DNA from: Anadara kagoshimensis
Lineage: Eukaryota; Mollusca; Bivalvia; Arcoida; Arcidae
DNA: 64,000 nucleotides
NCBI GenBank assembly: GCA_021292105.1
Contig: CM037871.1
Location: 51,794,200 to 51,858,199, forward strand
Direction: 5' to 3'
The notes beneath the pieces are model-generated. The model did no database searches. It saw only the letters and a program-made list of their open reading frames with translations, and was not told the origin of the DNA. Positions 10,160-54,989 of the stretch are shown piece by piece. Made by a program: the position numbers and the translations under genes. Position 1 is the first letter of the stretch; the number at the start of each line of letters is the position of its first letter.

Positions 10160-11115
10160 ATTGACAAATAAATGCATATATCTATCAGGAATTAAAACAA
10201 AAAAGATCAAAAGAAGTAATTCGATACAATTTAAACTTTCATTGTAAAATATTTCAGTAATATCGAAGTTTTAGCTTAACCAAAATTGCGGTTTTATAAT
10301 GAAAAAATCTCCATTTTAAGCTATTATTCAAGATTTACAAACAAATGATGGTTGGTTTTCCATTATATTTTCGATCCTTATATATTCTTAAAGATAAAGA
10401 ATTGCAGTTTTATTAACATTTGCAATAAAGTCTTATCAGTTATTATGGTAACAGATCTACATCTAATTTGCATAAATTTTAATATTGTTTCTGAAAGTAT
10501 ATCCTAACTGAATAGTTTTACTTTTGACAATTTACATTGAATAGACAAACAAGAAATGATTATAAGCAATTAAATTATTGTTATAACAAATTTTAGCAAT
10601 ATCCAACTTCTATTACAATTCTTAACTCCGGTATGATTTTTTCAAACTGAATAATATTCATGAATATATTATTGGAATAGCGTAGCTTTTTTCCCCCGTC
10701 ACGATTCTTTTAACTGGTATAGATAAAATTGGTTGATGAAATAAGTTTGTCTTGTTGCCAAGTGAACTAACACATTGGGTAGTGGCTTTTCATTTTTCTG
10801 CCATAGTTCTTTTAATTATATTTGGGATGGTAGAGGAAACGTTTACATAGGGACAAAAAGTATATGACAAGCGAACTGAGAAAATGTACATGTCTAGCAC
10901 CTAGCACTGGTATCAGCCAGACCGTCAGTGATACGTACATAAGCAGTAGATAAGACAATTCAAGCAGGGTCACTCATAGCTAGATAAAACAAGGTGTTCA
11001 GAGAACAATGTTGAACATCAGTGAATTCCATACAAAGTGAAATATGTTTTATTGATAACTGGTTGTAAAATAAGATTTACCAGATCGATTAAAGGGCGGA
11101 AACTCGCGTGCCGAA
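10160..11115. other. Upstream region of the EEP-like gene
   Basis: AT-rich, with no recognisable repeat. Since the coding start of the downstream gene directly follows a splice acceptor at 11620-11621, a 5' untranslated exon and promoter may lie here, but I cannot locate them. Confidence 0.3.
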
Positions 11116-11121
11116 AGTAGC

Positions 11122-11160
11122 ATAATAATAATAATAATAATATAATAATAATAATAATAA
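11122..11160. repeat. (ATA)n microsatellite
   Basis: About 13 ATA/AAT trinucleotides with one interruption. Confidence 0.95.
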
Positions 11161-11215
11161 AGATCAGAAACTGAATAAGGACAATCAGGCTCAACCGTGG
11201 TGGGAGACTTGGTAA

Positions 11216-11405
11216 TCAACAATCAAAAACAAACATACTAATCTATGTCCGAATCACAATCCAGAAGCAAAGTAAAAACTTTGGTACTGACAAGTTAGGT
11301 TAGACACGCGAACTTCCACCAGGGAAGTGAGGCCGGGTGCTCTGGAAGGGTAAGCACCTCCTGTTTAGCTAGCTACACCCGCCACGTGTTAAATCAAAAT
11401 TGTGT
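11216..11405 (-). repeat. Family D retroelement 3' end, minus strand
   Basis: A well-preserved minus-strand copy: ATCACAATCCAGAAGCAAAG, GAACTTCCACCAGGGAAGTG, GGTAAGCACCTCCTGTTTAG, CTACACCCGCCACGTG. The truncation point lies before the coding part. It sits about 220 bp upstream of the EEP-like gene's first coding exon. Confidence 0.85.
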
Positions 11406-11625
11406 GAGATATGTCAATCAAAGATCCTTGTCTTGCATACATTTATAACGAACATATATCATGTGGACGACTGAAGGCGAACGACCAAAAATCTTTGAAG
11501 GTTTAAGACGCCCTTACCAATGTGATAGGACAAAGTGTATTAGTCTCTGTTCACCCCGTTGTCTGAATATGTAATAAAATTAAAATAACATATAAACAGT
11601 ACTGTATTTCTTAACTTTCAGAATA

Positions 11626-14600
11626 ATGTTATTCCTGGCCACTACTTTAGTTTGCGCTGTTGCTGGCATGGTGATGGCAGAGGACGAAGTCAAAACAGAT
11701 AAAAGTCGAGAGGATATCCTTCTTTATGAATTAGGACTGAAAAAGAGAATTGTGACTTATAATACAGATTTGATTCCAACAGCCTGTGCCCCCTCTGATA
11801 CATCTGAAAATAAACCAGTCCAATGTTCATATGAGCAACGTCGTGCGGAACAGATTAAAGTAATAAACAAGGACCAGTACTTGGTCGAGTTCATGTGCTT
11901 ACAAGGGGTATTTTATGAGCGAGATGCATTGGAAATAATTGAGAAAACCAAACCACATTACCCTTACGCATACAGCTTTGTTCATGATGAAGACGGCAAT
12001 TTGAAGGAATTTGGACCTCCCTGTTCGGGCGAAGACGCTTTGATCCTCACGTTTTTGGCTGTCTGCGAATACAACATGTGTTTTGTCTTTGATACTGTTG
12101 AAGAAAGATTTGGCTGTTTGAAAGAGAAGTGTGGTATTGACTTCATCAAGCACTTATCTGCTGATTGCATTACTTGTTTCTTCTTGGGTACCGTCAACAA
12201 TCCAGCAGAGGAATGCTTAATGAAGAAATATGCATTTAACCCAACTGGTCTACTTGTATTAAGTAAAGCAGAGCTTCTGGACAAGAAGAGGGCAATGTAC
12301 AACAATCAAACTGAACTTATACGTAGAGGATTTCTGGATGTAACTGTGAGTTTATATAAAATGTGTTAATGTTTAATAATACGTCACATAGTTAGCTATG
12401 CATTCAACAATAATTTACTTACATGGAGATAGGTGAAGTGGCAGGTACTCAGGTCAATGTGCAGGGGTGGTTCTTTAACTTGCCACGCCTGTCATGACAC
12501 GGGTCACCGTGTTTAAGGCTCTTCCGAAGGACCCCATGATTTTCATTTCTAAATACCAAGTGCTTGGCGAAAGAACAGTCACTACCCATTTTCAAGTCTT
12601 GATCAGACCTCGGTCATGGTTCGAACCTACGGCCTCCCACATACGAATCGAGCACTTATAGAGGTTTTATAAGCGATGAAGCAAAAATAGTTGTTAAACA
12701 TTGTTACCTCCATTTCCTATTTTCTATGGTTAAAGGTACCTCTTCCAGCCATTGGTTTAAAAAATATAAGCAATTTTACAGATACCATGGAACAATGGCC
12801 CAGAAGAGCCTAGAAGCTAAAGAAAGAATATCTAAATCTTCAAATTAATATTTATGGATTCTAATCAATACTCATTACATGTATTTACATAAAACCGACA
12901 ACTAACACATTTTTTTAAATTTCATTACAATTTAATTTTATTTAATTATTTTTTTGTAATTATAGGTTAAAGGGATTGGAAGAATCTTGTGTACACAGTT
13001 AACAGAAAACCTCGGGAAAAACTACGTGGAATGTAAGTACAGTCAAACTTGTCTAAAAAGGCCACGAAAGGGAACAGTAAAAGTGGCCTTTTGGGCTGGT
13101 GGCCTTTACATACAGGTTCAAATAATATGAATGAAAACAATTGGGATACAATTCTGCTGGCCTTTTTTAATCAGGTGGTCCTTATATAGAGGTATCCTTT
13201 AAGGGTGGTTTGGCTGTATCTCTAAACAATTTCTTTGCGTTATTTTTTTAGTTCCATGAAATGGTATCTTCTTAAAGTAAGCAATGACAAAATATGTAGT
13301 TTTTAATTATATACAAAATCACATGCCCTTTTAATTTTAATCATAGAAACCATCTTTGAGCAAATGTCAAATGTTATTGAATTATATACATAATATCACA
13401 TCTTTTTAATTTTCGAATTCATCACAGTCAATCTTTTGAACAGTTTTCATGTGTTGCTTTTTTAATTCCGTGAAATATAATACAAAATTAGCCATTATCA
13501 ACTTTTTTAATTATACCCTACACTACATGTATAACAAAACATAAAACACAAATATTCATTTCCCGACCAGCCCGCCGTAGACGATAGCCATGGATTTATT
13601 ACAAGTTATATAAATATATAATTACGTGATCAACAGATGCACCAAAACATTAACATTATACCAGTATCCAATAATCAGATTATACACCCAAGTCTTCGAC
13701 AATCAGTCGTCCAGAAAAAACTCAAACGGTTTTTTAACCGAAAAGAGAAATCTGTGTCCGAAAGACATGCACATTTTGTCGCATGAGGTGGTGCTCAGAA
13801 CGTCACAATAATATCGGACTATTAAATAATACAAGTTAAATAAATCAATAGATAAAATTTGATTTGAGTTGTTATCCCGAACACGGGCGGCTAGAGAATC
13901 AACAGCAGGCCTACCTGCTCCACGCTTTAAAACACGTGATCATATACTACACTGCCATGGGTCCTTTCAATGGCATCACCCTGTTAACACGTACCGTGTA
14001 TACATTATTTTCCCACTATTGGATAAAACGCGGGAAAATTCACATACAAAATGCCACACACTTTATATTTCCATCAAGGAGACCACCCTTCTATATTTTG
14101 TATTTGCAAATATTAGCAAATCATCGGATAGCTAGTTTTTTAATCATATACAAATTACGGCATCTTTTAACAATTATTCCATCTTTGAACAGTTTTTATT
14201 ATTTTTACCAATTTCATGCCGAAATAATAATTTAAAAAATAGGAAATGGCAAATACACGAGGTTTTGAATTATATACACAATGCCACATCATTTACATTT
14301 CATCTCCGAGTCAATCCTTTCAATTTTTGTCTCATGCATTTTGTTCAATTCTATGACATGACATGAAATAACTTCAGAAAATTAGTAAAATGTCAACTAG
14401 TGTTTTCATGAAATACAAAACGCCAATGTTTGTTTCATTTTCATTTGAACATTTCTATGTCTTTATGTTTTATTCAGTTTTGTGACATGATAATTTTACA
14501 AATTAGCAAATTAGCTACTTCTTGAGTATATATAAGGGGATATAAAATTTCACATCTTCACATCCTTTTCATTTTCATAAATTTAAATGTTTAAATTTAT

Positions 14601-17600
14601 ATGTTCCATTAGCATTTTACTTATTCCATGACATAATATAACTGTCTTCATATAAAATTATTAAATGACAACTATTTTAATTACATGCAATTTAATATAT
14701 AAATATAATTTGCAGCTGAAAAAAAACTTGCACTTGGCAAAACCAAAACAACCAATACAATCACTGAGTTTGTCGTAAGATATTTTATAACATCAGTCTA
14801 GTAGTCTCCCTTTTTACCACTACGCTTTTTAAAATAGTGTATTACGAGGATTATCCCCCTTTATACCTAAAATAGACCAAAAATATCAATTTATAAAAAA
14901 TAAATAAATAAAAGTTGAGTAGTGGTGTTTTATGTCCCAGTCAAGCATATTTCACTTATATCAAGACGTCGCCAGATATAGGCGAGGTACAGATATTTTG
15001 TCAGTGCGTTGCGCTGAAGGCATTGTACTACAACAGGGTTCTTTATCGTGCCACGCCTACATTGAGACTGGATCTCGTTTATTGTAAGTTCCCATCCGAA
15101 AAAAACGAATCTTTCATTTTTTCGCCTATAGCTGGTGACGTCTCGATGTAAGTGAAATATTCTTGACTAGGACGTAAAACCTCATTACTCAACTCAACTC
15201 CAAAATGATGACATAGTTTGTGCGCGTGTTCAAATTTTTAAGATTTTGTACTAATAGAATTTAACATTAACTTTTATTCTAATTAAGACAAATTCACACC
15301 TGCTAGTTCAATAATTACGTTATGTTGGTATATATAGAACCAACCGTTTGTTTCTATGGAAATACGATTATACTTATATAAATATCACAGCACATGCTGT
15401 GTATTGGCCATCAAATACGTGTATCAAGTTGTGAATAACATCTAAAAGTCGCAAAAAAACCAACCCACCTGGAATACAATCGAGTAAGGTCGAGGGTATG
15501 ACAGGATAAACTTCAACTTGTTTAGGCAAACATCATTGACCTGTCTGCTTGACCTTTCATTAAGAATATTCATGTTGAGGGATCCATCCAATACACGAGT
15601 AGTGTTAGGATTCACAGGGGATATAAACAATATACATGCTTAGTGTTCTCATTATTTAGACGTAATCCCTATATAAACAATATACATGCTTAGTGTTCTC
15701 ATTATTTAGACGTGATCCCTATATAAACAATATACATGCTTAGTGTTCGCATTATTTAGACGTGATCCCTATATGTAAATGCTCTCGTCAATCATCAATA
15801 AACATTTAACTGATAGGTCAAGCGAACAGGTCAATGTTGTTTGTCTATAATTGTTTTATTGTATAGACGGGTAGCCTTTGAATACAGTTGTTTGTTGTAG
15901 CCGTTTTTACTGTATTGACAGGTATTAGTTATAGACAGGTGATATTTTTTATAGACATTAATGCTATACAATGTTTTACTGTATAGACAGGGTGGTCGCT
16001 ATATCAGGGTTTACTTTATAGACATTGTGTTCTCCCATGACAAGTCATGTAATATAGAAATATTCCATTGAAGATACCCATGGTGGATATTTCTTTCTTG
16101 CACCCCAGATAGAAAAATCCATAAAAAGAGAGGTGCAAGATAATAGCCTACATGCTGTTTTCCCCTGAAAATGTTATCAACAAAATCAGAGGTGTATCGA
16201 AAGTTGAAATTGATTTAAAATTGAAAAATTGTACTTTCTGATGCAATTCCATATTATACCAGTTTTAATTGTTACAGCACTAGACGGCCGTTTCGGAATA
16301 CAATTCCTCATCAGTAGTGCTTAGACCAAAATTATGAAACCAAAATGTTTGGAAGATGTTGAAAACTTACCCAAAGGACCAAAATATATTTTACCAAATT
16401 AAGCTAAGGAAATACTTTGCATGAGGGGGTATACCTTAGTTTTTTAGAAATTTCAAATTTTAACTTTCAGGAAATTTAGAAGAAATAGAATCAATCACTA
16501 CTTGTGGTGCCAGATAAGGAAATCTCAACCCTCGTTCTAATATATTTGGTCCAGAACTCGGCAAGCCTCGTTCTGGACCAAATATATTAGAACTCGGGTT
16601 GAGATTTCCCTATCTGGCACCACAAGATTAATCCTCTATGGGTCGCGCATGCAAATTGGCGCTGGTAGCGTCATAATCGAAAGACAATTGCATGACGTCA
16701 TCATGTGGGGAACATGACGTAATTGTGCGGGAAAAAGACACAAAAGTCTTTAAAATTTAGGGTTTTTTGAGTGCGTTTCAAATGTTTATTTTGGGAGTTT
16801 AGGATAAATAATTTTGTATTGTAGTTTATATACTTTGTATAAACCAAAATCACCGATGGTGATATTTATTTTTAAGCAGAATGTTGAATAACAAAGTTAA
16901 TTTTTTCCATCATGGCGTCGGTGTCTATGTAAATCGAATTTGAAGCCAAATATTGACATTAAAATTGGAGAAAAACTATCCATTATGAGTTTATCCGTGT
17001 AGGATAGGGAAATCTTACCCTCGGGATGGAATTTCTGGCTGAAATCTCCGAAAGCCTCGTCTCTGACTGAAATGTTCAACCCCTCGAGTGAGATTTCCCT
17101 ATCCTACATGGATACTCATAATGGATTCTTATATTTAAGGAATGATTGTAATTTTTTTCTATCTATGACCCCATAGATAGAAAAAAATTACAATCATTCC
17201 TTATAATTAAATTAAAAAATAAGTTCAATATTCATAACATTCAAGCAATCTTTTATTAAATTATACACAAAAAACCAGCGCATTAAAACAAAAAAACGGC
17301 ACATTAATCTAAAAGCGGAACACAGCTGATAGCCAATGGCAACCATGTAAACAATACGTCAATGACGTCATCGGAGAAATAAAAAAGTAGTTCCGGCATG
17401 CTTCAAAAATTCTGTCTATGGGATCATAGATAAAAAAAATTTACAACACTGGACAGTATTAAAATTTAATTATTCTCCCATCTCTAAATATGGAAGATCG
17501 AAGTATCCATGTATAGTAGGAAAGCCATGTGGAATATTTCTGTGTTTTATCACGTGTTTTGTTGGATTTCATCACGTTGATTTTCAGTGACGTCACAATC

Positions 17601-20600
17601 AAAACAATTGAATGACGTCATTCTATGGAGAACATGACGTTTAATGCGGAAAAATGACATCCAAGTCTAAACATTTACTAGAAAAATTCATTGCGATTCA
17701 AATGTTTATTCTGAAAGATTAGAATAAATAGATTTGTTTTCTAGTTTATACATTTTGTATATAAACGAGATATTCAAGTACATTCTGTCCGATGGTCATA
17801 TTTATTTTTATGTAAAACTTAAATAACAAAGCTAAATTTTCAAAGATGGCGTCGATGTCGATGTAACTTCTTTTTAAAGCAAAATTAGTCATCAAAATGG
17901 GAGAAAAAGAAGCCTCGTCACTGACTGAAATATTTAACCCCTCGTGTGAGATTTCCCTATCCTACACGGATACTCATAATAGATTCTATTACTATTTAAG
18001 TAGAGGTGGTCGCTATAGCAGTTTTTCCCTGTATAGAAAGTGTGGTCTTTAAATGAAGTGATGCTACAACAGGTTTAACTGTTATAGACTGTTATATTAT
18101 GGACTAATAAGACTTAGAGTTATTTCTCTTTGAATTATGAATGAATACCCCATGAATATCTGTATGTAAACCCCAATTTATAGGTTTATGACGTATGCAT
18201 TATCTGACGTCAGGATGACGTTGTTAGCTAAAAAAATGTCTACCTACATGAATAGAGTGTTGTCTTAATCATTCTGTATCATAACACCCTGACCACGAGA
18301 ATATATTACATGGTGTCAGAAGTAAATGCGACTTTATTGCATAGGAAATGACAGACCTTAGTGGTATTCCGACTCCCTGTATGGACTGGGACAGCAGTAA
18401 TCTTCCAGAGGCGTGGAAAAAATTCACATGCCACGTGAACTTGATTTTTCAAGGACCTCTCAAGGAGAAAGAGGAAGACGTCAAGGTAAACTACTTACTT
18501 CTTTGGGTTGGCGACCGTGGTCGGGACATCTACAATACATGGGAATTAACGGGCGATGACAGGAAGAAGCTCAAACCCCATCTTGATAAATTCCAGCAAC
18601 ATGTACAACCGAAACTCAACCCGATATTTGCGAGGTACAAATTTAGTAATGAACTGCAGGGAACACAATCTATTGAACAATATGTAACCAAATTGCGTCT
18701 TATAGTGAAAGACTGTAATTATACAAATGCAAATGAAATGATACGAGATCGTATTGTTTTTGGGACAAATTCTGTCAAGGTCAGAGAAAAGCTTATCCAG
18801 GAAGGACAAACATTGACACTTGAGAAAGCTATCAGCATAGCTCAGTCACATGAATATTCGCGAGAGCAGCTTAAGTTAATGTCAGGACAGCCATCAACAT
18901 TGTCATCGACTTCGGATGTGCATTCACTTAGGACAGCAGCCGCATCGGGACACAGATTTCAAAAACGTCGTCATGAAGGTCACCGAGGAGGACACGGCAA
19001 AGCACATGGTGGACGTCACAGTGACTCTTATTCACAGTGTGGTAATTGTGGTAATAGACATAACAAATCTGACATTTGCCCTGCTAAAGGCAGAAAATGT
19101 AATAACTGTCATAAACTTAACCATTTTGCTAAAATGTGCAGATCTAAACATGTGAATGTTAATGAAATTACAGGTAACCCACAACCAGAGGCGTCCCTGT
19201 CCCATAGTCCAAGTTCTGCCCAGATCCAGACTTGTTTATTGATTCCATTAATGAAAGTAATGGTAAACTTAATGTACAACAAGATAAGGCATTTGCAACT
19301 TGTGCTATTGGTCCAAGTTCAGTCCCAATTAAGTTCAAACTAGACACAGGATCCCAAGTTAACATAATTCCTTTGAAGGAATATCAAAAATTAAATATCA
19401 AAAAGTCACTTCATAGGTCAGATCGTACATTATCGGCATATAACGGTGGTTCACTACGCGCTGTCGGATTCGGAACGGTCAAGTGCCAGTATCGCGATAT
19501 TACCCGCGATATAGAGGTTTACGTCATCGACACCGATTCACCTCCGATATTAGGTCTTGGAGATTGCGTTGCATTTGAGATAATACAATTTGTCTATGCT
19601 GTCGAGACTGTACCAAACGCGATAATCGAAGGCGGAGTTCCGATGAACAAGGAATCCGTTCTCTCGGATTATGGAGATAATTCAAAGGTATCGGTAATTT
19701 CCCTGTGTGAGTGCAAGATTCATGTAGATCCATCGGTCGAACCCGTGGTTCACCCGCCGAGACGCGTTCCGGTCGCTGTTCGCGACAGACTTAAAGCGGA
19801 ACTAGATCGAATGGAAAGTCTGAATATCATTACCAAGGTAACCGAACCGACTAATTGGGTTTAATTCTCTTGTAGTTGTGGAGAAAAGCTCCGGAAATCT
19901 GCGCGTATGTCTTGATCCGCAAGACTTAAACAAGGCAATCAAAAGGCCACATTACCCGCTCCGTACACTAGACGACATATTGCCACAATTAACAAACGCC
20001 AAGTACTTTACGAAATTAGATGCCAGATCAGGCTACTGGGCGATCAAGCTGGATCACGAATCGTCGTTACTTACTACATTTAACACGCCTTACGGTAGGT
20101 ACCGTTATCTACGCTTACCGTTCGGATTGAAATCTTCACAAGACGAATTCCAGCGAAAGGTTGATGAATGCCTCGAAGGTATTCAAGGAGTTGTCACAAT
20201 CGTTGACGATATCCTTGTATATGGTAGTACACGTTTGGAACATGACCTGAATTTGCGAAGAGTGCTCGATAGAAGTCGCCACAAGGGCATCCGTTTTCAA
20301 TGTAGACAAGTTAGAGGTAGGCGTTACGGAAGTTCGCTATTTCGGTCACTTGCTCACATCATCTGGTCTCAAACCAGATCCTAACAAAGTATCTGCTATA
20401 CACGACATGAAACCGCCGAAGAACCAGGGCGAACTAGAGACATTTCTTGGCCTAGTTAATTATCTAGCCAAATTCGCGCCTAACGTTTCAGAAGTAACCG
20501 CACCACTTCGTCAGTTACTTATAAAAACCAACGAGTTTGTATGGGATACACCTCAGTCACAAGCGTTTAACCGAGTCAAAGACATTATTACCAAGAGTCC

Positions 20601-23600
20601 TGTCCTTGCGTATTTTGACCCGCAGAAACAGCTTACGTTACAGGTTGATGCTAGCAAATACGGATTGGGTGCTGCGTTACTTCAAGACGGAAGACCAGTA
20701 TGTTACGCATCGAAATCGTTGACGTTTACCGAACAAAATTACGCAAATATTGAACGCGAAATGCTTGGAATCGTATTTGGTTGTCATAGGTTTCATGAGT
20801 ATGTTTACGGACGGAAAGTGACCGTCGAAACAGATCACAAGCCTCTCGAGTCATTGCTAAGAAACCATTACATGTCGCGCCACCAAGATTGCAGCGAATG
20901 CTTTTCAGCATACAAAAATACGACTTGGACATTCGCTATAAGCCGGAAAGGACATACCTGTCGCGGATACGCTAAGCCGTAACTATTCGGAAGACACTAC
21001 AGTAAATTTATCGGACAAGGTAGAATTACAAGTACATTTTGTCTTAGCTAACGTACCGGTTAGCGATTGTCGCTTACACGAAATCCGCACCGAAAACACA
21101 AAAGATAAGATACTTAGCAAACTCATGGAAATCATCGATGAAGGTTGGCCACACCTCCGACGTCAATGCCATTCATCCGTTATTGAGTTCTGGAATTACA
21201 GAGACGAGTTATCTGTCATAGATGGTATAATTTTCAAAGCCGATAAAATAGTGATACGCTTAGCATGAGGTCTTACATGCTCAATGCAATACATAGTGGT
21301 CACATGGGTATCGAAAGATCTATCCAACGAGCTCGAGATGTTTTTTTTTAACTATTTTGGCCGAAAATGAACGACGTATCACGAATGTCGTTAAGCAATG
21401 TGCTGTATGTCAGGAGAACCGGAACTCGCCTCAAAAAGAACCTCTGATTTGCTCAGATGTTCCAGATTACCCTTGGCAGGTAGTCGCTACAGATCTGTTT
21501 TATTGGGATCACAAAGATTATATGGTCATAGTCGATTATTACAGTAGGTATTTCGAAGTATACCAGCTGTGTAATACTCTCAGTAGCACTGTTATCAGTA
21601 AGTGTAAGAATGCTTTTTCGCGTCACGGCATCCCGGAAAAGGTAGTTTCGGACAACGCGATGCAGTATACTTCGAGCGAATTCACCGATTTCGCCAGAAC
21701 ATGGAATTTTACACATGTTACCTCAAGCCCGAGATATCCACAAAGTAACGGTCTTGCCGAAAGAACAGTTCAAACTGTTAAGCGTCTTTTTACAAAATCG
21801 AAGTTATCAGGCATTGATCCACTTATTAGCTTGCTTGAATATCGTACAACACCGCTTGATATAGGCTCATCACCATCTCAGCTTCTGATGGGACGTAGAT
21901 TACGTGCCGCATTACCAGTTACCGTTCAGCACATGGTTCCGGAAATACCAGTTAATGCGCGTGATAAAATGATATCTAGCCGAATGCGTGCGAAAAAACA
22001 ATACGATAAAAATGCTAAACCAAGAAAAACACCGGAAGTTGGAGAATCTGTTCGCTTTCAAAAGTTTGACAAAAAATGGAATCCAGCCGTTATAGTTAAC
22101 AAACATAACGGTCGTTCTTTTTCATTGCTAGATCAAAACGGTACGATTTATCGCCGCAATACATCACACATCTTGCCAACAGCGGAGAAACGCGAACAAA
22201 TTACAGAACCAGAGTATCGCACGCTCGCGGATAATATAAATTCTCAAAGTGCACCAGTGTCGGAGACAGTTAAATCAGTGTCGGATCCAGTTAAATCACC
22301 TGGGCCTATCACCATGTCCAACTTACCCTCACAGCCATATATAACACGCTCTGGTCGTGAGGTTAAACCCAGGATTATTCCATCCATGTAAATACTTACT
22401 TTGTTCTTGTTTATTACGTTGACGTTTTATTTCAAGTTTCACAAATTAGTGACATTAATATCAGATGTGGCAATGTGTTTCAGTGACTTTTATTCAGTTT
22501 AAAAGGAAGGGGATGTTATATTATGGACTAATAAGACTTAGAGTTATTTCTCTTTGAATTATGAATGAATACCCCATGAATATCTGTATGTAAACCCCAA
22601 TTTATAGGTTTATGACGTATGCATTATCTGACGTCAGGATGACGTTGTTAGCATTAAAAGAAATGTCTACCTACATGAATAGACGTGTTGTCTTAATCAT
22701 TCCTGTATCATAACACCCTGACCACGAGAATATATTACATAGACAGTGTGGTCTTTATATGGAGATGGACACTATAGCAGGTTTTACTATATATACAGTG
22801 CGGTCTTTGTAAAGAGGTGGTGACTATAGCAGGTTTTACTCTATATACAGATGGTCTTTATATAGAGATGATCACTATTGTATATACAGGTGGTCTTTAT
22901 ATGGAGACGGTGACTATTGTATATACAGGTGGTCTTTATATAGAGATGATGGCTAGTGTATATACAGGTGGTCTTTATATAGAGATGATGACTATTGTAT
23001 ATACAGGTGGTCTTTATGTAGAGATGATGACTAGTGTTTATACAGGTGGTCTTTATATAGAGACGGTGACTAGTGTATATACAGATGGTTTTTTTTAGAG
23101 ATGATGACTATTGAAGGTTTTGTTGTGTAATTATTATTTGCAATGAACCTGCTTGTATATGGAATAACATAAAGTGTATTGAAGACTGCGTTATAACAGA
23201 CTAGATGAATATCTCCAATATAGTCTTCATTGTCTTCAATTTTCATCCTTTAAGAAACGTTGCCAAAAATAAAAGCCTGCATCTATAAAATATAACTACA
23301 TACTTATTAAGTACCAGGTATTGCCGGTTAATTTTCCTACATTTTTTATAAAAAAAAAATTATTCATTGAGAGCCTAGATCCCTGAACACGCATCTTAAT
23401 GGTGATTTCTTTAGAGATTTGGATGTTTGACGGTACTTTGCATTATAAACAAAATGTGTGAGACTAGTCTGAGAACATCAGGCTATTATTCATGTCTGTG
23501 ATTTGTAGAGTCAAACAACATTGACCTGTCCGTTTAACCTTTCATTTTGAATAAGTCATATAGTCATATCCATCCAATACATGAATTAGAATTCTCGGTT

Positions 23601-26435
23601 AAAAATTAAATAATACCCGTCAAGTAGTTTTTCCATGAGGTAGACTAAATAATCACTTGTGTTCCCTACACACAAATGCGACTGTCTTTATAGAATTGAA
23701 TTAAAGGTCAAGCGGACAGGTAAGTGTTGTTTGGTCTATAATAAAGATATATTGCTGAACAAAAACCATTGCTTATAGAGGCACCAATTAACAGCCTTAC
23801 GTAAATAATATTGAATTAATGTAAGATTAATACCGCTGATATCAGGATACAAATGGGAGAAATGTGGAGTTATAAATCACGGCTTTCACCAGTTGATCTT
23901 TTACCACGATGATTTTTACATCTTAGGAGAAAACAGTGTTTACTGATATATGTAGGTCCATAAAACTGTTGCTTTACAACAAATGTTTGCAATGCGGGCA
24001 CATTTTACATTTTCAATTTTTATTAAAACGGATGATAGTGAGGACAGAAAGAGATAAATAATGAGGACATTATAGAGATATGATGTTGTGATGTTGGTAC
24101 CGTTCTGATTCTTTTTTTCAATTCTGCATCAGTAATTTTTCACCTATGATTTTCGCGACGATTTATAGAAATAAAAGTTGCTGGGGTTTTTTAACGAAGC
24201 ATCAGTGATTTTTCAGCTATTTGCGACCAGATATAGAAATGAAAATAAGATTCGTTAGGAACTAACCTGCAATATTAGGACCATTTTAATGCGAGGACAC
24301 ATCATATGTATTCCATTATAAATATAAATAATGTTTTTAAACATTGTATATCATGAACTGTCAATATACGGACAGGAAATATGGCATTGTCATCAGAAAA
24401 CGTCGGTACGAGTTATAAGTATTACTTAACCTAATGCTTGGAAATTGGAGTATAGGTTTATAAGTATAGTTTTAAACGCATTCAAATCTCCTGAAATTTT
24501 GGCCTCGAAAGAATGTGTCATAATATATCTTTATGCGCATTCTGCATTATTTATCTTTCATGGATGGTTATATCCATGAGAGAAAGTATAACCAGTTTAT
24601 CTGGTCTTGTCTTGGTTGCCTACTTCCTCCGTTTGTTAGGGCCTCGGTGGCCCAGTGGTCTAAAGCACGCGCGTACGGATCACAACTACTCTCACCGATG
24701 ACTTTCGAGTACCACTCGAGACAGATCCTTATGTGAGAAAGGTTGTCAGTTCGTTTGACCGAGGTCCTTTCTCCGGGCACTCCGGATTCCTCCTCTTTTT
24801 CCAAAACAGACCGCTTCGATATAAGAGAAAAGAATGGACGTTAATCAATGTTAATCCACTTCAGTGCACTCCGTTAGTTGTTGAGTTTTCTTGATTAAAT
24901 TGGCTTTTTGTCAAACACAATGCATTTTTCTTGTACAAATTAAATCTCTTCTTATTTTCTTTTATCATATAATTTAGTGAACGATGAGTACGGATCATAT
25001 GAAGCTAAGAACCAAAGAGAGCTTGAGAAGTTGTTTAATTATGTTAAGGACGTGCCAAACGTTATAATTGCTGGCGACATGAGTATAAGTCCGATAATGT
25101 TCAGAGGCGGTAGTATTAAACCCCAGTTTGAAGAACGGGTGTCGTTTATCCACCACGAGAACTTCCTTGACCCAGTTGCCGACCACTTTGAGTTTGTCAG
25201 TGTTGGTTGTAGTGTTTGTATTGGTAACCCTATGGTACAGAAGCGATATAAAGAAGAAGGGGCGGGCACAGACGGGTACCTGTTTGACCATATTTTGGTC
25301 CGTGGATTTAATGTGTCCAGGAAGTTGGTCAACAAAATGAATGCTGATGTGAGTATTGAAATAAATACATTTGACTAAAGTGTTCAGTTGTTTGGGGTTT
25401 GTACCGTCCTGGCCGGGTCTGACCTAGACTTAAAAATGGTAGCGACTGTTCTTTCGTCTAGCACTCAATATTTAGAAATAACTGAGCCTCCCGTAGACAT
25501 TTAAAACCGATAACCCCGTGTCATGATGGACAGGTAACATTGTCCTGAACGCACTGTAACGGTAAAAATTTCTACCACCTAACCTATACCTGGAGACGAC
25601 ACGATATAAATAAAAAATTCTTAAAGAGGACGTAAAACTCTTTCAATTAATCAAATAAATATATTCCAGTTTATCCAGAACAAACACATTTGCAATTTTT
25701 CTCAACTTCCGATTTATTTTTTTCACTCAAATTGTCCAGAAAACCGTTGATTGCAATTTTACTTCAACACTGTTGTCTTGGAAACTCTGTGTTAAAAACT
25801 TACAGAGTATAATCATTTTTTTTCATTATTCTGAGCAAGTAGTCATTGAGTGCAGGAGTTCATAATTTGCACGTAACCTGTTAAATTCACATAATTTACC
25901 AATATGCATATTTATGGATCACTCATGATTGTGAAGAATGTGGGATGGTTACGTCTGTCAGTTCTACCACCTCTGGACAGCGTCCAAAGCTTGAGATTGT
26001 ATAATATGTGAACTAGATATATATGTTTGACTTTTCTTATCTTGTTAGATTGTGTTATCATTGTCTTGTATTATGTTCTTGGTGTTTGTTGCATTGGTTG
26101 TGGCAAATAAATTACATGCTTTTCAGTTGCAATGTCCCATCTTTTATTGTAAAATGTAAAGAGAGGTCATGATGTTTTTTAAATCAAACATGAGAACTAC
26201 TAACCCTTTATTAATAAAATTTATATAAAAAACATTTCAGACGTTCCGTGTATTTGAAGAAACTTACAACAACAATCATCACCCGTTGTCCAGTCACTAT
26301 GGTTACCTGATAACGCTGTTGTTGACTGATAATTACAAGGAAGTTGATATCGCTGCTAGACGAGCTGAACTGATAGCTGAAGAGCTGAAGTCTGAACTGG
26401 AAGCTGAACATGAAAGGTCAGAGGAAGAAGAATAA
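11626..26435 (+). CDS. Secreted EEP-superfamily (sphingomyelinase/DNase I-like) protein, probable pseudoenzyme, 4 coding exons
   Basis: Exons read as 11626-12345, 12966-13032, 24978-25348 and 26241-26435 (stop TAA 26433-26435), about 450 residues. Donors are GTGAGT, GTAAGT and GTGAGT; the codon split at 13032/24978 rejoins in frame. Residues 1-18 form a signal peptide ending AGMVMA. EEP landmarks: VTYN (43-46), CLQGVF (91-96), GLLVLSK (208-214), RILCTQL (246-252), VIIAGDMS (291-298), FDHILV (365-370), SSHYG (403-407). A cysteine-rich insert (eight Cys, 133-197) precedes GLLVLSK, and the tail (about 423-450) is charged and probably helical. Family members normally hydrolyse phosphodiesters. 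Here the usual Glu of QE is Gly94, the His of THL is Gln251, the Asn of GDxN is Ser298 and the Asp of SDH is Ser404; Asn46, Asp296, Asp366 and His405 remain. I infer a secreted, catalytically weak or inactive paralogue. The start codon lies 5 bases after an acceptor AG, so a 5' UTR exon is likely upstream. The family call is fairly firm, loss of activity is inference. Confidence 0.76.
12425..12660 (-). repeat. SINE family 2 (MetaSINE-like), minus strand, in intron 1
   Basis: Minus-strand copy with body words GGTTCGAACC, AGTGACTGTTCTTTCGCCAA, GGTCCTTCGGAAGAG and GCAGGCGTGGCA. It shares these with copies at 25.4, 28.1 and 60.85 kb. I recall very similar sequences from molluscan SINEs. Confidence 0.75.
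13038..13218. mobile_element. MITE with TACAGTCAAAC... ends, at the start of the giant intron
   Basis: The left end TACAGTCAAACTTGTCT and right end AGGGTGGTTTGGCTGTA are imperfect inverted repeats; TA at each end fits a TA target duplication. The interior mentions GTGGCC/GGCCTTT repeatedly and includes GGTGGTCCTTATATAGAGG, related to the minisatellite units at 15.85 and 22.74 kb. It begins 5 bases inside the intron. Confidence 0.75.
13220..14905. other. AT-rich intron sequence, nothing recognised
   Basis: Part of the giant intron of the EEP-like gene. It is very AT-rich with diffuse repetition of words such as TATACACAAT and CATTTTCAT, suggesting an old degenerate repeat, but no unit could be defined. 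Confidence 0.35.
14910..15195. repeat. Inverted pair of SINE tails (foldback)
   Basis: The left arm (TTTTATGTCCCAGTCAAGCA, TATTTCACTTATATCAAGAC) is the approximate reverse complement of the right arm (GACGTCTCGATGTAAGTGAA, ATATTCTTGACTAGGACGTA), with a central SINE-2 body fragment (TTTATCGTGCCACGCCTAC). This is two SINE-2 3' ends head-on. Confidence 0.72.
15522..15848. mobile_element. MITE family A with internal 50-bp tandem triplication
   Basis: Ends are GGCAAACATCATTGACCTGT and AGCGAACAGGTCAATGTTGT, as in the 9012 and 23506 copies. Its extra length comes from three near-identical 50-bp units starting at 15621, 15671 and 15721 (ATATAAACAATATACATGCT...). Two units carry GACGTGATCCC and one GACGTAATCCC. 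Confidence 0.87.
15849..16030. repeat. Diverged minisatellite, left remnant
   Basis: Irregular units of about 35-45 bp built around GTTTTACTGTATAGACAG and GGTGGTCGCTATA. The same unit type resumes at 18000-18089 and 22740-23110, on the far sides of the foldback block and the LTR retrotransposon. Confidence 0.75.
16240..16500. repeat. Dispersed repeat family E
   Basis: Core ACTAGACGGCCGTTTCGGAA, ACAATTCCTCATCAGTAGTG and CCCAAAGGACCAAAATATAT, then GGTATACCTTAGTTTTT. Related copies lie at 31.3, 38.9, 39.25 and 56.2 kb. It has no reading frame. Confidence 0.72.
16501..16626. repeat. Palindrome with 57-nt arms
   Basis: The left arm 16501-16557 (CTTGTGGTGCCAGATAAGGA...) is nearly the exact complement of the right arm 16570-16626, with a 12-nt loop TCGGCAAGCCTC. 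The same loop caps a different stem at 59461-59480. Confidence 0.93.
16980..17124. repeat. Imperfect inverted repeat
   Basis: CCATTATGAGTTTATCCGTG and AGGATAGGGAAATCT on the left face AGATTTCCCTATCCTACATG and ATACTCATAATGG on the right. The centre holds AAGCCTCGTCTCTGACTGAA, related to the 59.4-kb hairpin. Confidence 0.87.
17129..17210. repeat. Short-loop palindrome
   Basis: Arms of about 38 nt (AAGGAATGATTGTAATTTTT / complement) flank the 4-nt loop ACCC. A half arm (CTATGGGATCATAGATAAAA) reappears at 17416-17440. Confidence 0.93.
18000..18089. repeat. Minisatellite remnant between the foldback block and the LTR element
   Basis: Units GAGGTGGTCGCTATAGCAG and CCTGTATAGAAAGTGTGGTC match those at 15.9 and 22.75 kb. 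The last five bases (TAGAC) are the left target-site duplication of the LTR retrotransposon. Confidence 0.7.
18090..18310 (+). repeat. 5' LTR
   Basis: Starts TGTTATATTATGGACTAATA and ends GAGAATATATTACA. At 221 bp it is shorter than the 3' LTR, differing around GTTAGCTAAAAAAATG, GAATAGAGTG and CATTCTGTATC. Confidence 0.95.
18311..18328 (+). other. Primer-binding site (probably tRNA-Leu)
   Basis: TGGTGTCAGAAGT directly follows the 5' LTR. It is complementary at 12 of 13 positions to the 3' end of an animal leucine tRNA (CAG type) as I recall it. The tRNA assignment is inference. Confidence 0.65.
18348..19343 (+). CDS. Retrotransposon Gag, 331 residues
   Basis: Structural protein that packages element RNA. 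The frame from ATG 18348 to TAG 19341-19343 is intact. The N-terminal two thirds (FTCHVNLIFQGPL, NYLLLWVGDRGRDIYNTW) look like a retrotransposon capsid. A basic His/Gly/Arg-rich linker (about 200-228) leads to two zinc knuckles: CGNCGNRHNKSDIC, which is atypical in spacing, and CNNCHKLNHFAKMC, a standard CX2CX4HX4C. The protease frame overlaps the gag end by about 110 bases in the -1 frame, the usual arrangement for programmed frameshifting, but I saw no clear slippery heptamer. Confidence 0.9.
   Translation: MTDLSGIPTPCMDWDSSNLPEAWKKFTCHVNLIFQGPLKEKEEDVKVNYLLLWVGDRGRDIYNTWELTGDDRKKLKPHLDKFQQHVQPKLNPIFARYKFSNELQGTQSIEQYVTKLRLIVKDCNYTNANEMIRDRIVFGTNSVKVREKLIQEGQTLTLEKAISIAQSHEYSREQLKLMSGQPSTLSSTSDVHSLRTAAASGHRFQKRRHEGHRGGHGKAHGGRHSDSYSQCGNCGNRHNKSDICPAKGRKCNNCHKLNHFAKMCRSKHVNVNEITGNPQPEASLSHSPSSAQIQTCLLIPLMKVMVNLMYNKIRHLQLVLLVQVQSQLSSN
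19232..22391 (+). pseudogene. Retrotransposon Pol (protease, RT, RNase H, integrase), frameshifted
   Basis: The polyprotein is split over frames. Protease: KLDTGSQVNIIP near 19337-19372. RT: FTKLDARSGYW near 20006-20040, LPFGLKSSQDEFQ near 20116, VDDILVYG near 20203-20226. RNase H: QVDASKYGLGAAL near 20640 and ETDHKPLESLL near 20830. The integrase zinc-binding region keeps only CAVCQ; its core has ATDLF, VSDNAMQYTS and NGLAERT (D, D, E) in 21357-22391, ending in a GPY/F-like segment. Frame changes are apparent near 19862, 20298, 20862, 20960 and 21341-21360 (a T9 run at 21341). Most look like one-base gains or losses, so either recent decay or sequencing error could explain them. Confidence 0.92.
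22501..22513 (+). other. Polypurine tract
   Basis: AAAAGGAAGGGGA lies immediately before the TG of the 3' LTR, where plus-strand priming is expected. Confidence 0.88.
22514..22739 (+). repeat. 3' LTR
   Basis: 226 bp, TGTTATATTATGG...ATATTACA, followed by the TAGAC target duplication at 22740-22744. Confidence 0.95.
22745..23110 (+). repeat. 39-bp minisatellite, right remnant
   Basis: Units GGTGGTCTTTATATAGAGAT GATGACTATTGTATATACA repeat with a 39-bp period (for example at 22889, 22928 and 22967). The units nearest the LTR element resemble the older type at 15.9 kb (GCTATAGCAGGTTTTACT), and the later ones are more uniform. It contains a 93-codon open frame that is only a repeat translation. 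Confidence 0.9.
23506..23740. mobile_element. MITE family A, third copy
   Basis: Ends TCAAACAACATTGACCTGTC and AGGTCAAGCGGACAGG...GTTGTTTG. It shares interior words (CATCCAATAC) with the 15522 copy but has no 50-bp tandem units. Confidence 0.85.
23745..24630. other. AT-rich intron sequence, nothing recognised
   Basis: Still inside the giant intron. Near-repeated phrases (CATCAGTAATTTTTCACCTA at 24126 and CATCAGTGATTTTTCAGCTA at 24200) suggest a small, old local duplication. Confidence 0.4.
24635..24835 (+). repeat. tRNA-derived SINE (family 1), plus strand
   Basis: Head with A-box-like CGGTGGCCCAGTGGTCTAAA and a damaged B-box, then body GTGAGAAAGGTTGTCAG, TTTCTCCGGGCACTCCGGAT, CCTCC, AAAACAGACCGCTTCGATAT. 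This is the same family as the copies at 7.7 and 53.4 kb. It ends about 140 bp before exon 3 of the EEP-like gene. Confidence 0.8.
25390..25670 (+). repeat. SINE family 2, plus strand, in intron 3
   Basis: GCCGGGTCTGACCTAGACTT, GCGACTGTTCTTTCGTCTAG, CCCCGTGTCATGATGGACAG and the tail GATATAAAT...GAGGACGTAAAACTC, ending in CAATTAATCAAAT. The head is missing. Confidence 0.75.
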
Positions 26436-26480
26436 AGCTGAACTTCTACGATCTATTCAAGAGAAACAAGAGATCATTTT

Positions 26481-26486
26481 AATAAA
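26481..26486 (+). promoter_or_regulatory. Candidate polyadenylation signal of the EEP-like gene
   Basis: AATAAA 46 bases after the stop codon, the first hexamer downstream of the coding region. Confidence 0.6.
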
Positions 26487-26559
26487 AATACTGATTATTT
26501 CAAAATTCCCGATATCATTATTTTTTTAAATAAAAATACCTAATTAATACACTGATACA

Positions 26560-26720
26560 GTACAGACCCGGCCTGTCGGAATTTTAACACGTAGCTAACG
26601 TAAAGGAGTCGAAATCGCTGGAAATTGATAGCTTGTGAACGAGAGATGAATGTAGATGATAGCTCTCGAGTTATAGCTAATGTCGAACGGTCGATTCGGC
26701 ACCAATTCTTTAGCCTAGTG
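26560..26720. repeat. Dispersed repeat family F
   Basis: GGCCTGTCGGAATTTTAACA CGTAGCTAACG ... GGCACCAATTC. Related sequence occurs at 30.2, 30.56, 32.7 and 59.58 kb. There are no coding features. Confidence 0.55.
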
Positions 26721-26889
26721 TTAAACTTTCCTGCACCGTATCATAACTCGATCCTCCTTTGTTTTAAGGTCTTTAATTGGTCAGACCTTTTTCCGTTTGC
26801 ATTGGCTCTCGGTCATGTATCGTGGACGAACAACGAAACACACGAAACAAAGCTATTTTTGCTTGCTATGATTGTAAAACTACATTGAA

Positions 26890-27940
26890 TGATCAATACC
26901 TAATTTGCTGTTTAAAAATTATTTAATTGAATTATAAGAAATGAAATTGGATTTTGTTTTTGTTATAGAAAAATGACAGAACAAATTTGAACATGTATAC
27001 ATGATTCGCTCCGCAATTTACATGAATGTCCATTTTTTCATTTTTCCATAGCAAAATGAGAATATGATTATTTTACTTCTATAATAAATCATATTTTGAT
27101 ATTTCTTAAGTGTTTAAGATTTATAAATAATATTTTTACTCTGCTTCTGGATTTTGATTTGAACACGGATTAGTGTGTTTGTTTAAGATATAACCTCAAC
27201 ATGTTATATGCCAAGTTTCTCTTTTACTAAAATGTTAAAATAATGTAAAATTGAAGATATCAAAATACCATAAAAATTAAATTATTTTGTTTATTTTTAA
27301 ATCCATGGAACTTTCTTCCAACGGACAGAAATGATTTCAAATTGTTATTCCGGTTATTAATTTGAAGTAGTTTAAAGTAGCTATTGTAGGTTCGAAACTA
27401 GTCTCACCAGTCTTCATGCGGTACAATACAACCATTTAGAATGATGCAATATTGGGACTTTTGATCTGAAGCCTAGGTGAAATGTTTAAGTTGAGACAAA
27501 TACAATATATATTGATGAAATAATTTTTCAGCTTCCATCATAATAGGGTTCGCCGCTGTAAGACGTAATAAACGTTAACAACCTTAACGTTTTGGAAGAC
27601 GTTTGTATGTATGTCGCGAATTCTCGGAATAACGTCGTTGTTACGGGAAAACGTGAACTTTCAATGAAACAATAACTCCGCACAAATGTTAGAGTTTATC
27701 GCGTGGTACAGCTGTGGACCTATTGTTTGCAACAGATTTATTTTGTTTCCGATCAAGCAAAAACCCACAAGAATCATCCGACAATTCCAGCAGACTGGCT
27801 TAAACGTGCCTTTTGTATCACAGGAACCAACACTAAATATCCATTCGGGCGACACATTAGTGCAGAAGACTAAGCGAAAGAGCCATTAAATGGTGTAATG
27901 TTGTGTTACATCCCTCTTATATCGAGGCGTTTAATGGAAT
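26890..27940. other. Intergenic stretch
   Basis: Nothing recognised except a short family D 3' fragment at 27130-27190 (TTTTTACTCTGCTTCTGGAT ... CGGATTAGTGTGTTTG). The 67-codon open frame at 27686-27889 has no family motif. Confidence 0.4.
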
Positions 27941-27954
27941 GGTGGTGGACACCG

Positions 27955-28080
27955 GACTCTGTGAAGAATAGCACAACTTTGTGTCGATAGGGCCAGACTG
28001 AGTGGGATCGAACCTTGTCAGTGACAGTCGGTGTGATACATAAATGCGTACTTTAGACAACTCGGCCATCGATTGATTAA
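27955..28080 (-). repeat. tRNA-like SINE head, minus strand
   Basis: On the minus strand: ATGGCCGAGTTGTCTAAAGT (A-box) and GGTTCGATCCCACTCAG (B-box). It abuts the tail of the next SINE (28080-28440), so one SINE probably inserted beside the other. Confidence 0.7.
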
Positions 28081-28440
28081 TTTATTGAATGGGTTAACGT
28101 CCAGTCAAGACTATTTCACTTATATCCAGACGTCACCAGCTATACGTGAAGTGGCAGAAATTTGACTTTTGCAGTGTGCTCAGGGTAATGTGCAGGGAGG
28201 AATCTTTAAATAGCGTACCACGCCTGCTACGAGACATCGATTTTTAAGCTCTCTTCTGAAGGACCTCGTAACTTTCATTTCTAAATATCATGAATATTAT
28301 TATCAAGAAGTATCTTTCTTAGCGAAAAAACAGTCACTTTCTATTTTCAAGTCTTGGTCAGACCCAGCCGGGGTTGAACGCGGACCTCTCACATACGCAG
28401 AACTCTACTAACTGAGCTACCGTAGTCAGTGTTAAACAGC
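28080..28440 (-). repeat. SINE family 2, near-complete, minus strand
   Basis: Read on the minus strand: tRNA-like head GTAGCTCAGTTAGTAGAG and GTTCAACCCCGGC, then GGTCTGACCAAGACTTGAAA, AAAGTGACTGTTTTTTCGC, GCAGGCGTGGTACGC, GCTGGTGACGTCTGGATATA and the tail GTGAAATAGTCTTGACTGGA ... CAATAAATTAATCAATC. This is the most complete copy in the window. Confidence 0.83.
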
Positions 28441-28732
28441 TCGGTAATCGAGCCATCCAAGATTAGATCAAGCAATGGACAGGTTTATCAATAGATGTGA
28501 GAATGGTTTTTATCCAGACTGATGCAGAACAGAGCTGACAGAGACATTATGTCGCTTTTATGCGACTTATTTTTTGGCTAGGTTACAATGCAATGAGTGA
28601 AAATTAGGCTGATATAGTATGATGAATGCCGTGAGAAAGGGGCGTTGCCAAACATAACACATCGGCAAGAAAACTCCACATAAAAGCGACACCAAAACTT
28701 TCATTTGGTGACGCCTTGATATAAGTTAGATA

Positions 28733-28735
<3 letters not shown>

Positions 28736-28772
<37 letters not shown>

Positions 28773-28782
28773 GTGCGTTTCT

Positions 28783-28831
<49 letters not shown>
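28736..28831. repeat. (CT)n and (TA)n microsatellites
   Basis: A CT run at 28736-28769 and a TA run of about 46 bp at 28786-28831, separated by 16 bases. Confidence 0.97.
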
Positions 28832-28833
<2 letters not shown>

Positions 28834-28839
28834 AAACTA

Positions 28840-30130
28840 AGATTTTTTATTTGTTCGCTCTTCAGTCCCGTAGCCCTTATGAGACAATACAAAGCTAATT
28901 AAAGAATAAAACGTACTTATATATATCTTTATCTAATTAAGGAATGATGTATTTCTTTCAAAATAAAGACTTCTCTGATAAATATCAAATATCAGAATAT
29001 TTAATTTCATTTCAATATTATAGCTTTATCCAATCATTTTTGTGTCTCGCCGATATAATTTAAATCGATTTTTACCAGTGAACCGTCTGTCATGCCGATA
29101 TTAAAAAACGGTACGTCTTCTGTAATTAAATTTGCTTTGCATCAATTTCCCATAAAATACAAAAAAGAATAAAACTTAATTTCTCATCTTCGGCAAAAAG
29201 GAGTTCTAAAATATATCATTATTGCGTTAAATGGTACGCGAACACTCAGAGGTCCCGTTCACACGCCATACGCCGCCATTAGTTTTCATCTTGGGACCAG
29301 GAGACAAACAGAATTTGCGATGTTGTCAACAAAAGCGAAGTATCCCCACCGCGGTACCCAGCTCAATATATCAAAATGTCGAGTTTACTCCATGTCGAAA
29401 TCTTAATGCCGTGTGTTTACACGTAAGTTTCGATCCGTTTCCCACAACAACGCTTGCTTTTATTAGATTAACACTTCTATGGCTAGTGCCTTTGTCGCTT
29501 TGCGAAGTCTCATCATAACGTTTTCAATCGATCGCTGGGTAGTGAAACCCCCTCTGTGATTGATAAACAGTTTATAAATTGATCAGAATAGAATTGCCAA
29601 ACCACTAAGGGCAGTCCCGCATAATGAAAGTATAATTAATGACATTTTGAAGGTGGAAAAACTTAATAAACCTCCGTGTGTAATCTTATTAGAATTGGTT
29701 GCTCTTTCACGGTTCTCACCGGTAGAGTCCCTTGTAAGATATTATTCTACGACAACATATTATTCTGAACAGATTTCACATCCAAATTAGTCCAATAAAT
29801 CGTTTTAATGCGCATGCCTAATAATGTTATTGTGTTTTACAGTTCTTATTAAATACTGTTGTTTATTTTCTTTTTAACGCCCGTGATTAAGAAAAACTTA
29901 TTTTATTTTCTGACGCAAAATATCAGAAAGCATAAACACTGTAGTTATTCTCTGTAGAACGATTTTAAGCTTTTTTTTTCTTGTCTTTAATTTCAGTGTG
30001 TAGATTACAGCCCGCCAGAGAATTAAACTGATTTTACAGCTTGCTACTTTAAATTTGATTAGAACTTTGTAAAATGAAAACCATATTGCTTTTTCTTGTG
30101 AAAATTTAATTTATAACTTGTGAACCCAAG
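28840..30130. other. Intergenic stretch
   Basis: No supported gene. The 95-codon frame at 29231-29518 has balanced composition and ends near a donor-like GTAAGT at 29422, so a decayed or unrecognised exon is conceivable, but no family motif is convincing. Confidence 0.35.
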
Positions 30131-46818: not shown

Positions 46819-47186
46819 GCCAAACTAAGGACATAAGACACCCCTCACCAAACTAAAGACATGGGACACACCTCACCAAACTAAAGACATGAGACACTCC
46901 TCACCAAACTGAAGACATGAGACACTCCTCACCAAACTAAAGACATGGGACACTCTTCACCAAACTTAAGACATGAGACACTCCTCACCATAATAAAGAC
47001 ATGAGACATTCCTCACCAAACTAAAGACATGAGACAGTGCTCACCAAACTGAAGACATGAGACAGTGCTCACCAAACTGAAGACATGAGACACTCCTCAC
47101 CAAACTAAAGACATGAGACACTCCTCATCAAACTGAAGACATGAGACACTGCTCGCCAAACTAAAGATATGAGACACTCCTCGCCA
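46819..47186 (+). repeat. 28-bp minisatellite, about 13 copies
   Basis: Unit CACCAAACTAAAGACATGAG ACACTCCT. Variants include CTGAAG for CTAAAG and AGTGCT for ACTCCT, with paired variants at neighbouring units, as expected of slippage or unequal exchange. Confidence 0.96.
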
Positions 47187-47454
47187 GTCTATGCTCAATA
47201 TCTTTTTAAGGATAAAAAGGTGAAGTTATTGGACATAGAGATTTTCAGCTTGAAGTGAAATTTGAAAATTGTGCAGCGTGTGCAGACTTTTTTCAATAAT
47301 GTCAGATACAATTTTAATCTTTCACACTTAATTCCTTTTAAATTGGCATTGTGGTTTTAAAAAAAGTTTTCGAGCTTGTAGAGGACGCATTACCATGTCA
47401 TAAGCTCCTCAATGTGTAAAAGAGTGGCATTGTCGAGAAGTGACTTCTAAAATG

Positions 47455-47505
47455 TTTTGCTTATATACGTGGCGGATGTAGCTTACTAAACATGAGGTGT
47501 TATTA
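47455..47505 (+). repeat. Family D fragment
   Basis: ACGTGGCGGATGTAGCTTAC, TAAACATGAGGTGTTA. Confidence 0.6.
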
Positions 47506-47904
47506 ACTGTTTTAACTCGTCGGGTTTGTTATCCTTCTGACCAAAGTATTGATGGGGGAATCGTTTTGTTATCGTCCTGCAGCTGGTCAATGAACGAATG
47601 GATTGAAATTGAGTGGAGACCCCATTGTTTAGGGAAATGATTCAATTTTCTTACTTGTGGAGGAAACGTTTGAATGCAGATAACTATATTTGTTCTGCTC
47701 ACCAAATTCTAAAAATGCACTTGTTGCCTCACATGCCAAATGTTTTACAGCCTCCATCAAGCCCATTGCATGGACAGGAGAGCCATTCTTCTGTTGTCCT
47801 ATTACCCAAACTATTGAAAACAAAGATATTATTTTCCTGTGTTTCTAACCAAATCAAAGGCGGAATAGAGATACTGATGTCATTAAGCATAGATTGTTCA
47901 CGCT

Positions 47905-48968: not shown

Positions 48969-49167
48969 TGTGACCATATTATCTTTATCTCAGATTTTTC
49001 TTAACTAAAGCTAGCAATTTTAGCAGTATTTTATGTTACTTTAATGAAAATGTCTCAAAAAAATTAACTTAGGTAGATGCAAAAATCATACATGCCTGAG
49101 ATTTTTTTAAATTCCCTAAAACTACATGGTGGAAAAGTCTAACGTGATTAAATAGACTGTTTTAGTC

Positions 49168-52846: not shown

Positions 52847-52867
52847 ATATATATATATATATATATA
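52847..52867. repeat. (AT)n microsatellite
   Basis: About 10 AT units. Confidence 0.9.
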
Positions 52868-52899
52868 AATCACAAATAAGTTTATTGCTGAAATTATAT

Positions 52900-53395: not shown

Positions 53396-53424
53396 ATAAG
53401 CCTTATTTTCAAGCGAACAAAAAG

Positions 53425-53620: not shown

Positions 53621-53699
53621 CGGCTCTGTGTGCGATTTTGATAATGTAGATATGCTAACTATGTAGTCTTTAGTATACATTTATACTTTGATATACACA

Positions 53700-54985: not shown

Positions 54986-54989
54986 GCTA

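Follow-up and report, generated by a model that had tools for sequence, protein, structure and literature searches.

Our analysis indicates that a gene in the window (the whole 64,000-nucleotide stretch analysed here, C15:51794200–51858199, from an assembly of 1.115 Gb in 36 contigs) probably encodes a secreted, disulphide-rich pseudoenzyme. Judged from its sequence, it would be an old neutral-sphingomyelinase-like paralogue of the EEP fold which has lost four active-site residues, the metal-binding Glu and three others, and has been kept for a non-catalytic role. The basis for this is the exon structure, the homology to paralogues whose sites are intact, the loss of four of the eight site residues, strong constraint on the protein, and retention of the cysteines and most fold markers.

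The gene lies on the forward strand in four exons, at 11626–12345, 12966–13032, 24978–25348 and 26241–26435, which join to 1353 bases encoding 450 residues and a stop. All splice borders are GT-AG, with the donors gtgagt, gtaagt and gtgagt and acceptors ending in tatag, tttag and ttcag. The in-phase joining of these exons to a protein of 450 residues, as proposed in the first-pass annotation, was reproduced, and the EEP landmarks were found in the order given there. Exon 1 (720 nt, residues 1–240) contains VTYN, CLQGVF, a cysteine-rich insert and GLLVLSK; exon 2 (67 nt, residues 241–262 and the first base of codon 263) contains CTQL; exon 3 (371 nt) contains GDMS and FDHIL; and exon 4 (195 nt with the stop codon) contains LSSHYG followed by some 40 C-terminal residues that form an acidic, charged tail. 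Intron 2 (13033–24977, 11,945 nt, phase 1) contains a Ty3/gypsy insertion. The N-terminus, MLFLATTLVCAVAGMVMA, is hydrophobic and signal-peptide-like when read by eye, and from this stretch the protein is predicted to be secreted. It has 15 cysteines and two N-x-S/T sites (227 and 374). A candidate mini-exon at 14716–14774, which would give a five-exon model, was rejected by eye, as including it would break the frame and the models of the paralogues lack an exon there.

A protein search of the organism's own genome with the window protein gave 13 matches. Four were its own exons, five belonged to a near-identical second copy of the gene (copy D, see below), and the other four lay elsewhere, at C19 ~28.42 Mb (paralogue A), C19 ~29.90 Mb (the twin of A), C19 ~51.19 Mb (paralogue B) and C11 ~33.24 Mb (paralogue C). 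With paralogue C as the query, 19 matches were obtained; these fell on the loci just named, on a repeated B exon 5 and on C19:53232304 (E 0.16). Since this search scores only the best candidates, the family comprises at least three divergent paralogous loci. In the opposite direction, paralogue A found exon 1 of the window gene by tblastn at E 8.6e-24 (E for a search of the window), and up to E 10 the three paralogues gave only scattered weak matches in the window beyond the four exons (best E 0.16).

The gene models of A, B and C have six exons each. The first copy of A has an open frame only with a non-standard donor, while its twin, in which an A-run is longer by one A, takes the standard donor. 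The earlier A model was used for alignment A1 with its profile and for the Pfam and contig searches, and the twin of A for the comparison of introns and identities. Exons 1–3 of the two copies of A are identical, the divergence over 3.5 kb of the locus is 6.8%, and the A-run in which one copy has one A fewer is in exon 4. A second copy of B exon 5 lies ~12.6 kb upstream of B (C19:51185351), and could belong to a broken gene of the family or to a further one.

The window protein is 31.7, 29.2 and 29.9% identical to A, B and C, respectively, and these are 35.4–36.0% identical among themselves. It keeps 53 of the 81 columns that are invariant in A, B and C, and nine of the ten invariant cysteine columns, the tenth cysteine being one column over. 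The first-pass annotation had described the exons and splice phase as conserved, and this held: the gene is homologous exon by exon to the three loci, and all three of its introns have same-phase counterparts. The introns of A, B and C are at columns 93, 246, 269, 323 and 397 (phases 0, 0, 1, 1 and 0), and those of the window gene at columns 246, 269 and 395 (phases 0, 1 and 0), so that the phase is the same in three of three and the column in two of three, the third being displaced by two columns where the alignment is gapped. Intron 2 of the window gene is at the column of intron 3 of the paralogues. These same-phase counterparts support the exon model without recourse to RNA. The two paralogue introns missing from the window gene are those at column 93, directly behind the codon of Gly94, and at column 323; exon 1 thus equals paralogue exons 1 and 2 minus their intron, and exon 3 equals paralogue exons 4 and 5 minus theirs. 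The absence of the intron behind this codon and the replacement of the Glu it once encoded may be one common event.

In summary of the likeness, the paralogues share with the window gene matching introns and phases, the same cysteines, 29–32% identity and, by eye, an N-terminal hydrophobic stretch. However, they have kept the site residues and have five introns rather than three. They also lack an insertion of 13–16 residues found around residues 52–67 of the window protein, and the acidic C-terminal tail, longest in the window protein, is shorter in A and missing from B and C.

The site motifs of A, B and C are intact: CLQE, SLQE and CLQE; CTHL, SVHL and CTHL; GDLN, GDIN and GDLN; YDH, LDH and IDH; and SDH. 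In the window protein, the Glu, His, Asn and Asp of EEP-fold enzymes are replaced by Gly94, Gln251, Ser298 and Ser404, at the positions where these changes had been proposed. Gly94 (GGG, 11905–11907) stands where the paralogues and the neutral sphingomyelinase SMPD2 (E49) have Glu; Gln251 (CAG, 12996–12998) replaces the His of CTHL, SVHL and CTHL; Ser298 (AGT, 25082–25084) replaces the Asn of GDLN or GDIN; and Ser404 (TCC, 26292–26294) replaces the Asp of SDH (all codons on the forward strand). We counted eight site residues, the equivalents of SMPD2 N15, E49, H136, D178, N180, D238, D271 and H272, where N180 and D271, the equivalents of Ser298 and Ser404, are taken by us to be active-site residues. 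Counted in the profile alignment, Asn46 pairs with N15, Gly94 with E49, Asp296 with D178, Ser298 with N180, Asp366 with D238, Ser404 with D271 and His405 with H272. Gln251 was paired with H136 by motif (THL at 135–137), as the profile alignment is shifted there. Asn46, Asp296, Asp366 and His405 are therefore retained (4/8), and the other four are replaced.

Measured against an active EEP phosphodiesterase or neutral sphingomyelinase, the window protein lacks the metal-binding Glu and the THL His, has the Asp but not the Asn of GDxN, and has the His but not the Asp of SDH. No acidic residue occurs within three positions of Gly94 in the protein sequence. In the SMPD2 study (PMC10682184), E49 binds Mg2+ and its replacement by Ala is enough to abolish activity; N15A, E49A, D178A and H272A abolish activity or nearly so, H136 is named as a catalytic residue and D238 as a proton reservoir. 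By comparison with its paralogues and with SMPD2 (PMC10682184), the window protein is an enzyme homologue without essential catalytic residues. The proportion of changed site residues (4/8) stands beside 28/81 changed among the columns invariant in A, B and C, and no enrichment is claimed.

Copy D lies on the contig of the window at a distance of 1.4 Mb, in the opposite orientation. Over all exons, 1352 bases were compared between the window copy and D, and 21 differences were found, 18 of them synonymous and three non-synonymous (V22A, N283K and E449D). This gives dS 0.068, dN 0.0028 and dN/dS 0.042 (Fisher P 2e-10), with the gapped codon of D left out and the constraint resting on this one close pair. 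The purifying selection predicted by the first-pass annotation (dN/dS below 1) is thus seen in one pair of copies, and the four substitutions are shared by D of the same genome. A homologue without its catalytic residues is therefore retained under purifying selection, as expected of a pseudoenzyme. Seven non-coding stretches nearby differ by 2.3–5.6% between the two copies. The comparison of paralogue A (earlier model) with its own twin gave seven synonymous and two non-synonymous differences (ratio 0.076), and the two ratios are not different (P 0.62). This suggests that constraint on the window protein is about as strong as on a relative whose site is intact.

The window was collinear with, and inverted relative to, C15:50.35–50.41 Mb (50355000–50413999) in the pieces compared across window positions 222–55462. 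Between 222 and 30376, identity to D was 92–97% in pieces of more than 900 bases, and 83% in one piece of 225 bases; it was 98% for 47000–49500 and 93% for about 52740–55462. Twins at comparable distances also exist for paralogue A (1.5 Mb) and for a PF03372 match on C9 (1.6 Mb), and a C18 pair, 16% different over 3.7 kb, falls outside that twin pattern. Those on C9 and C18 are possibly retroelements. From these comparisons, D seems likelier to be an uncollapsed haplotype than a duplication. If the two copies are alleles, 0.042 is a polymorphism ratio; it is a measure of constraint on the protein whether D is a haplotype or a duplicate. D lacks one base of an A-run in exon 1, and either it or the window copy may therefore be broken. 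A comparable A-run difference exists between paralogue A and its twin, and this points to assembly error as the source of the A-run differences.

The window protein alone matched no Pfam family up to E 10, and so gave no direct match to EEP (PF03372). Its two longest exons alone had no Pfam match either, and the joined protein found nothing in PHROGs and nothing in PDB up to E 10. A single NCBIfam match (E 0.13) was taken as chance. PF03372 matches three of the four profile members, A, B and C (best E 6.1e-13), the window protein being the non-matching member. It is assigned to the EEP superfamily through its exon-by-exon homology to these three paralogues, because they match PF03372. A search of PDB with the four-protein profile gave 15 sequences up to E 10, with SMPD2 first (8j2f, E 1.7e-7) and sphingomyelinase C second (7cne, E 0.0096). 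The other 13 matches, at E ≥ 0.015, included phosphoribosyltransferases, TNF-receptor fragments, Rab-33B and two EEP nucleases (1ako and 8ka3). DNase I belongs to the same fold superfamily as EEP proteins, and none of the 15 sequences up to E 10 was a DNase I chain.

Another link comes from a bacterial relative (L034, 281 aa, from a Flavobacteriales MAG), which is 32% identical to the window protein over residues 41–135. By eye, it keeps LQE, NTH, GDFN, LDY and SDH, and its own search of PDB gave 13 sequences up to E 0.01 with sphingomyelinases first (2ddr, 7.6e-12). The link to sphingomyelinases comes from the four-member profile and L034, since neither the window protein nor paralogue A, used as a single query, matched any PDB sequence up to E 10. 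L034 was the one confirmed relative among 40 pattern stretches in genome contigs, and none of the 24 pattern stretches in viral contigs was confirmed as a relative; both counts say little about origin. In a tree of the window protein, A, B, C and L034 (244 ungapped columns), the window protein adjoins L034 with support 0.884, on long branches and with L034 misaligned around THL; given this tree, the two introns that the window gene lacks may either have been lost from it or never have been gained. Taken together, the most fitting reading of the window protein is that of a secreted pseudoenzyme within a neutral-sphingomyelinase-like EEP family. By our reading, A, B and C share no conserved equivalent of SMPD2 Lys116, and for this reason we make no claim that they cleave sphingomyelin.

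Could the protein still be an enzyme whose chemistry has changed, with Asn46, Asp296, Asp366, His405 and the substitutes catalysing a different or slower reaction? Four of the eight site residues are indeed kept in both the window copy and D, and strong constraint cannot separate catalysis from binding. However, Gly94 sits at the position of the Mg2+-ligand Glu, where Ala alone abolishes the activity of SMPD2 (PMC10682184), the His, the Asn and the SDH Asp are also gone, and the neighbourhood of Gly94 offers no acidic substitute. We consider a changed chemistry rather unlikely. A recently disabled gene heading for decay would explain the changed site residues, the two introns fewer than in the paralogues and the one-base deletion in D, but the 18:3 excess of synonymous differences and the dN/dS of 0.042 (P 2e-10) argue against it. 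The window copy, some 30% identical to the paralogues, has an open frame and GT-AG sites, and the family cysteines are kept; decay seems very improbable. A processed or decayed pseudogene was rejected likewise, as three introns are kept, the frame of the window copy is open and constraint is strong.

The exons are known from genomic sequence rather than RNA, and a wrong or incomplete exon model, in which other exons bring the catalytic residues, was therefore also weighed. All three introns agree in phase with those of A, B and C, two of them at the identical column and the third shifted by two, and both Gly94 and Ser298 fall within long exons. We scanned the forward frames of window positions 11000–30000 and found no match to [CS]LQE, [TV]HL[TR] or SDH[YSF], while GD[LIF]N had a single match, GDIN at 15617, which stands alone, away from every homologous stretch. 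This indicates that no alternative exon there visibly supplies the lost residues. An error of this kind in the exon model is hardly to be expected.

If the gene product is a pseudoenzyme, the loss of the Mg2+-ligand Glu and of the His would leave it unable to hydrolyse phosphodiesters, and phosphodiesterase activity is presumed absent because these two are gone. The remodelled pocket (Gly, Gln, Ser and Ser) might then bind without cutting, most likely a phospholipid head group or a phosphodiester. Alternatively, the surface of the protein might partner or compete with the paralogues, and the acidic C-terminal tail could, speculatively, bind cations or a partner. A tentative proposal, drawn from sequence comparison and less probable than not, is that this pseudo-sphingomyelinase acts as a binder or regulator: it would occupy the membrane phospholipid head groups used by secreted A, B and C, or pair with these proteins, and so control extracellular phosphodiesterase activity.

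Among known systems, SMPD2 (neutral sphingomyelinase 1, PDB 8j2f) is a membrane protein. It shares with the window protein an EEP-type core and the motif order N, (E/Q)E, GL..SK, THL, GDxN, D(Y/H) and SDH. In contrast to SMPD2, the window protein has no equivalents of Glu49, His136, Asn180 and Asp271, and adds a cysteine-rich insert and a signal-like start; by our reading of the alignment, Lys116 of SMPD2 has no conserved counterpart across the family of the window protein. Bacterial sphingomyelinase C (PDB 7cne) and L034 have the EEP landmarks in common with the window protein, but L034 has intact site residues and no cysteine-rich insert. Pseudoenzymes occur in many fold families, and dominin/cavortin, the SOD-like proteins of bivalve plasma, are secreted pseudoenzymes that keep an extracellular enzyme fold without its reaction, although their fold is unrelated to that of the window protein. 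Full-text searches of an open-access library listed no paper that, judged by title and abstract opening, deals with a secreted EEP/sphingomyelinase-like pseudoenzyme. A secreted animal EEP pseudoenzyme whose dN/dS is close to 0.04, in a genome that also encodes paralogues with intact sites, would be a clean natural case, and the window gene raises the question of what role an enzyme fold has once its chemistry is gone.

The insertion in intron 2 is a Ty3/gypsy-type LTR retrotransposon (18090–22740, forward strand), with two near-identical LTRs of about 220–227 nt and matches to RVT_1, RNase H and rve. Its target-site repeat is short (TAGAC, by eye), and its coding stretches are in several frames. 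The element is missing at the matching site of D, which reads as an uninserted site. This suggests a recent, possibly polymorphic insertion. In the same intron, a repeat at 22739–23113 has many matches across ~19.5–22.6 kb of D, where it is several times longer.
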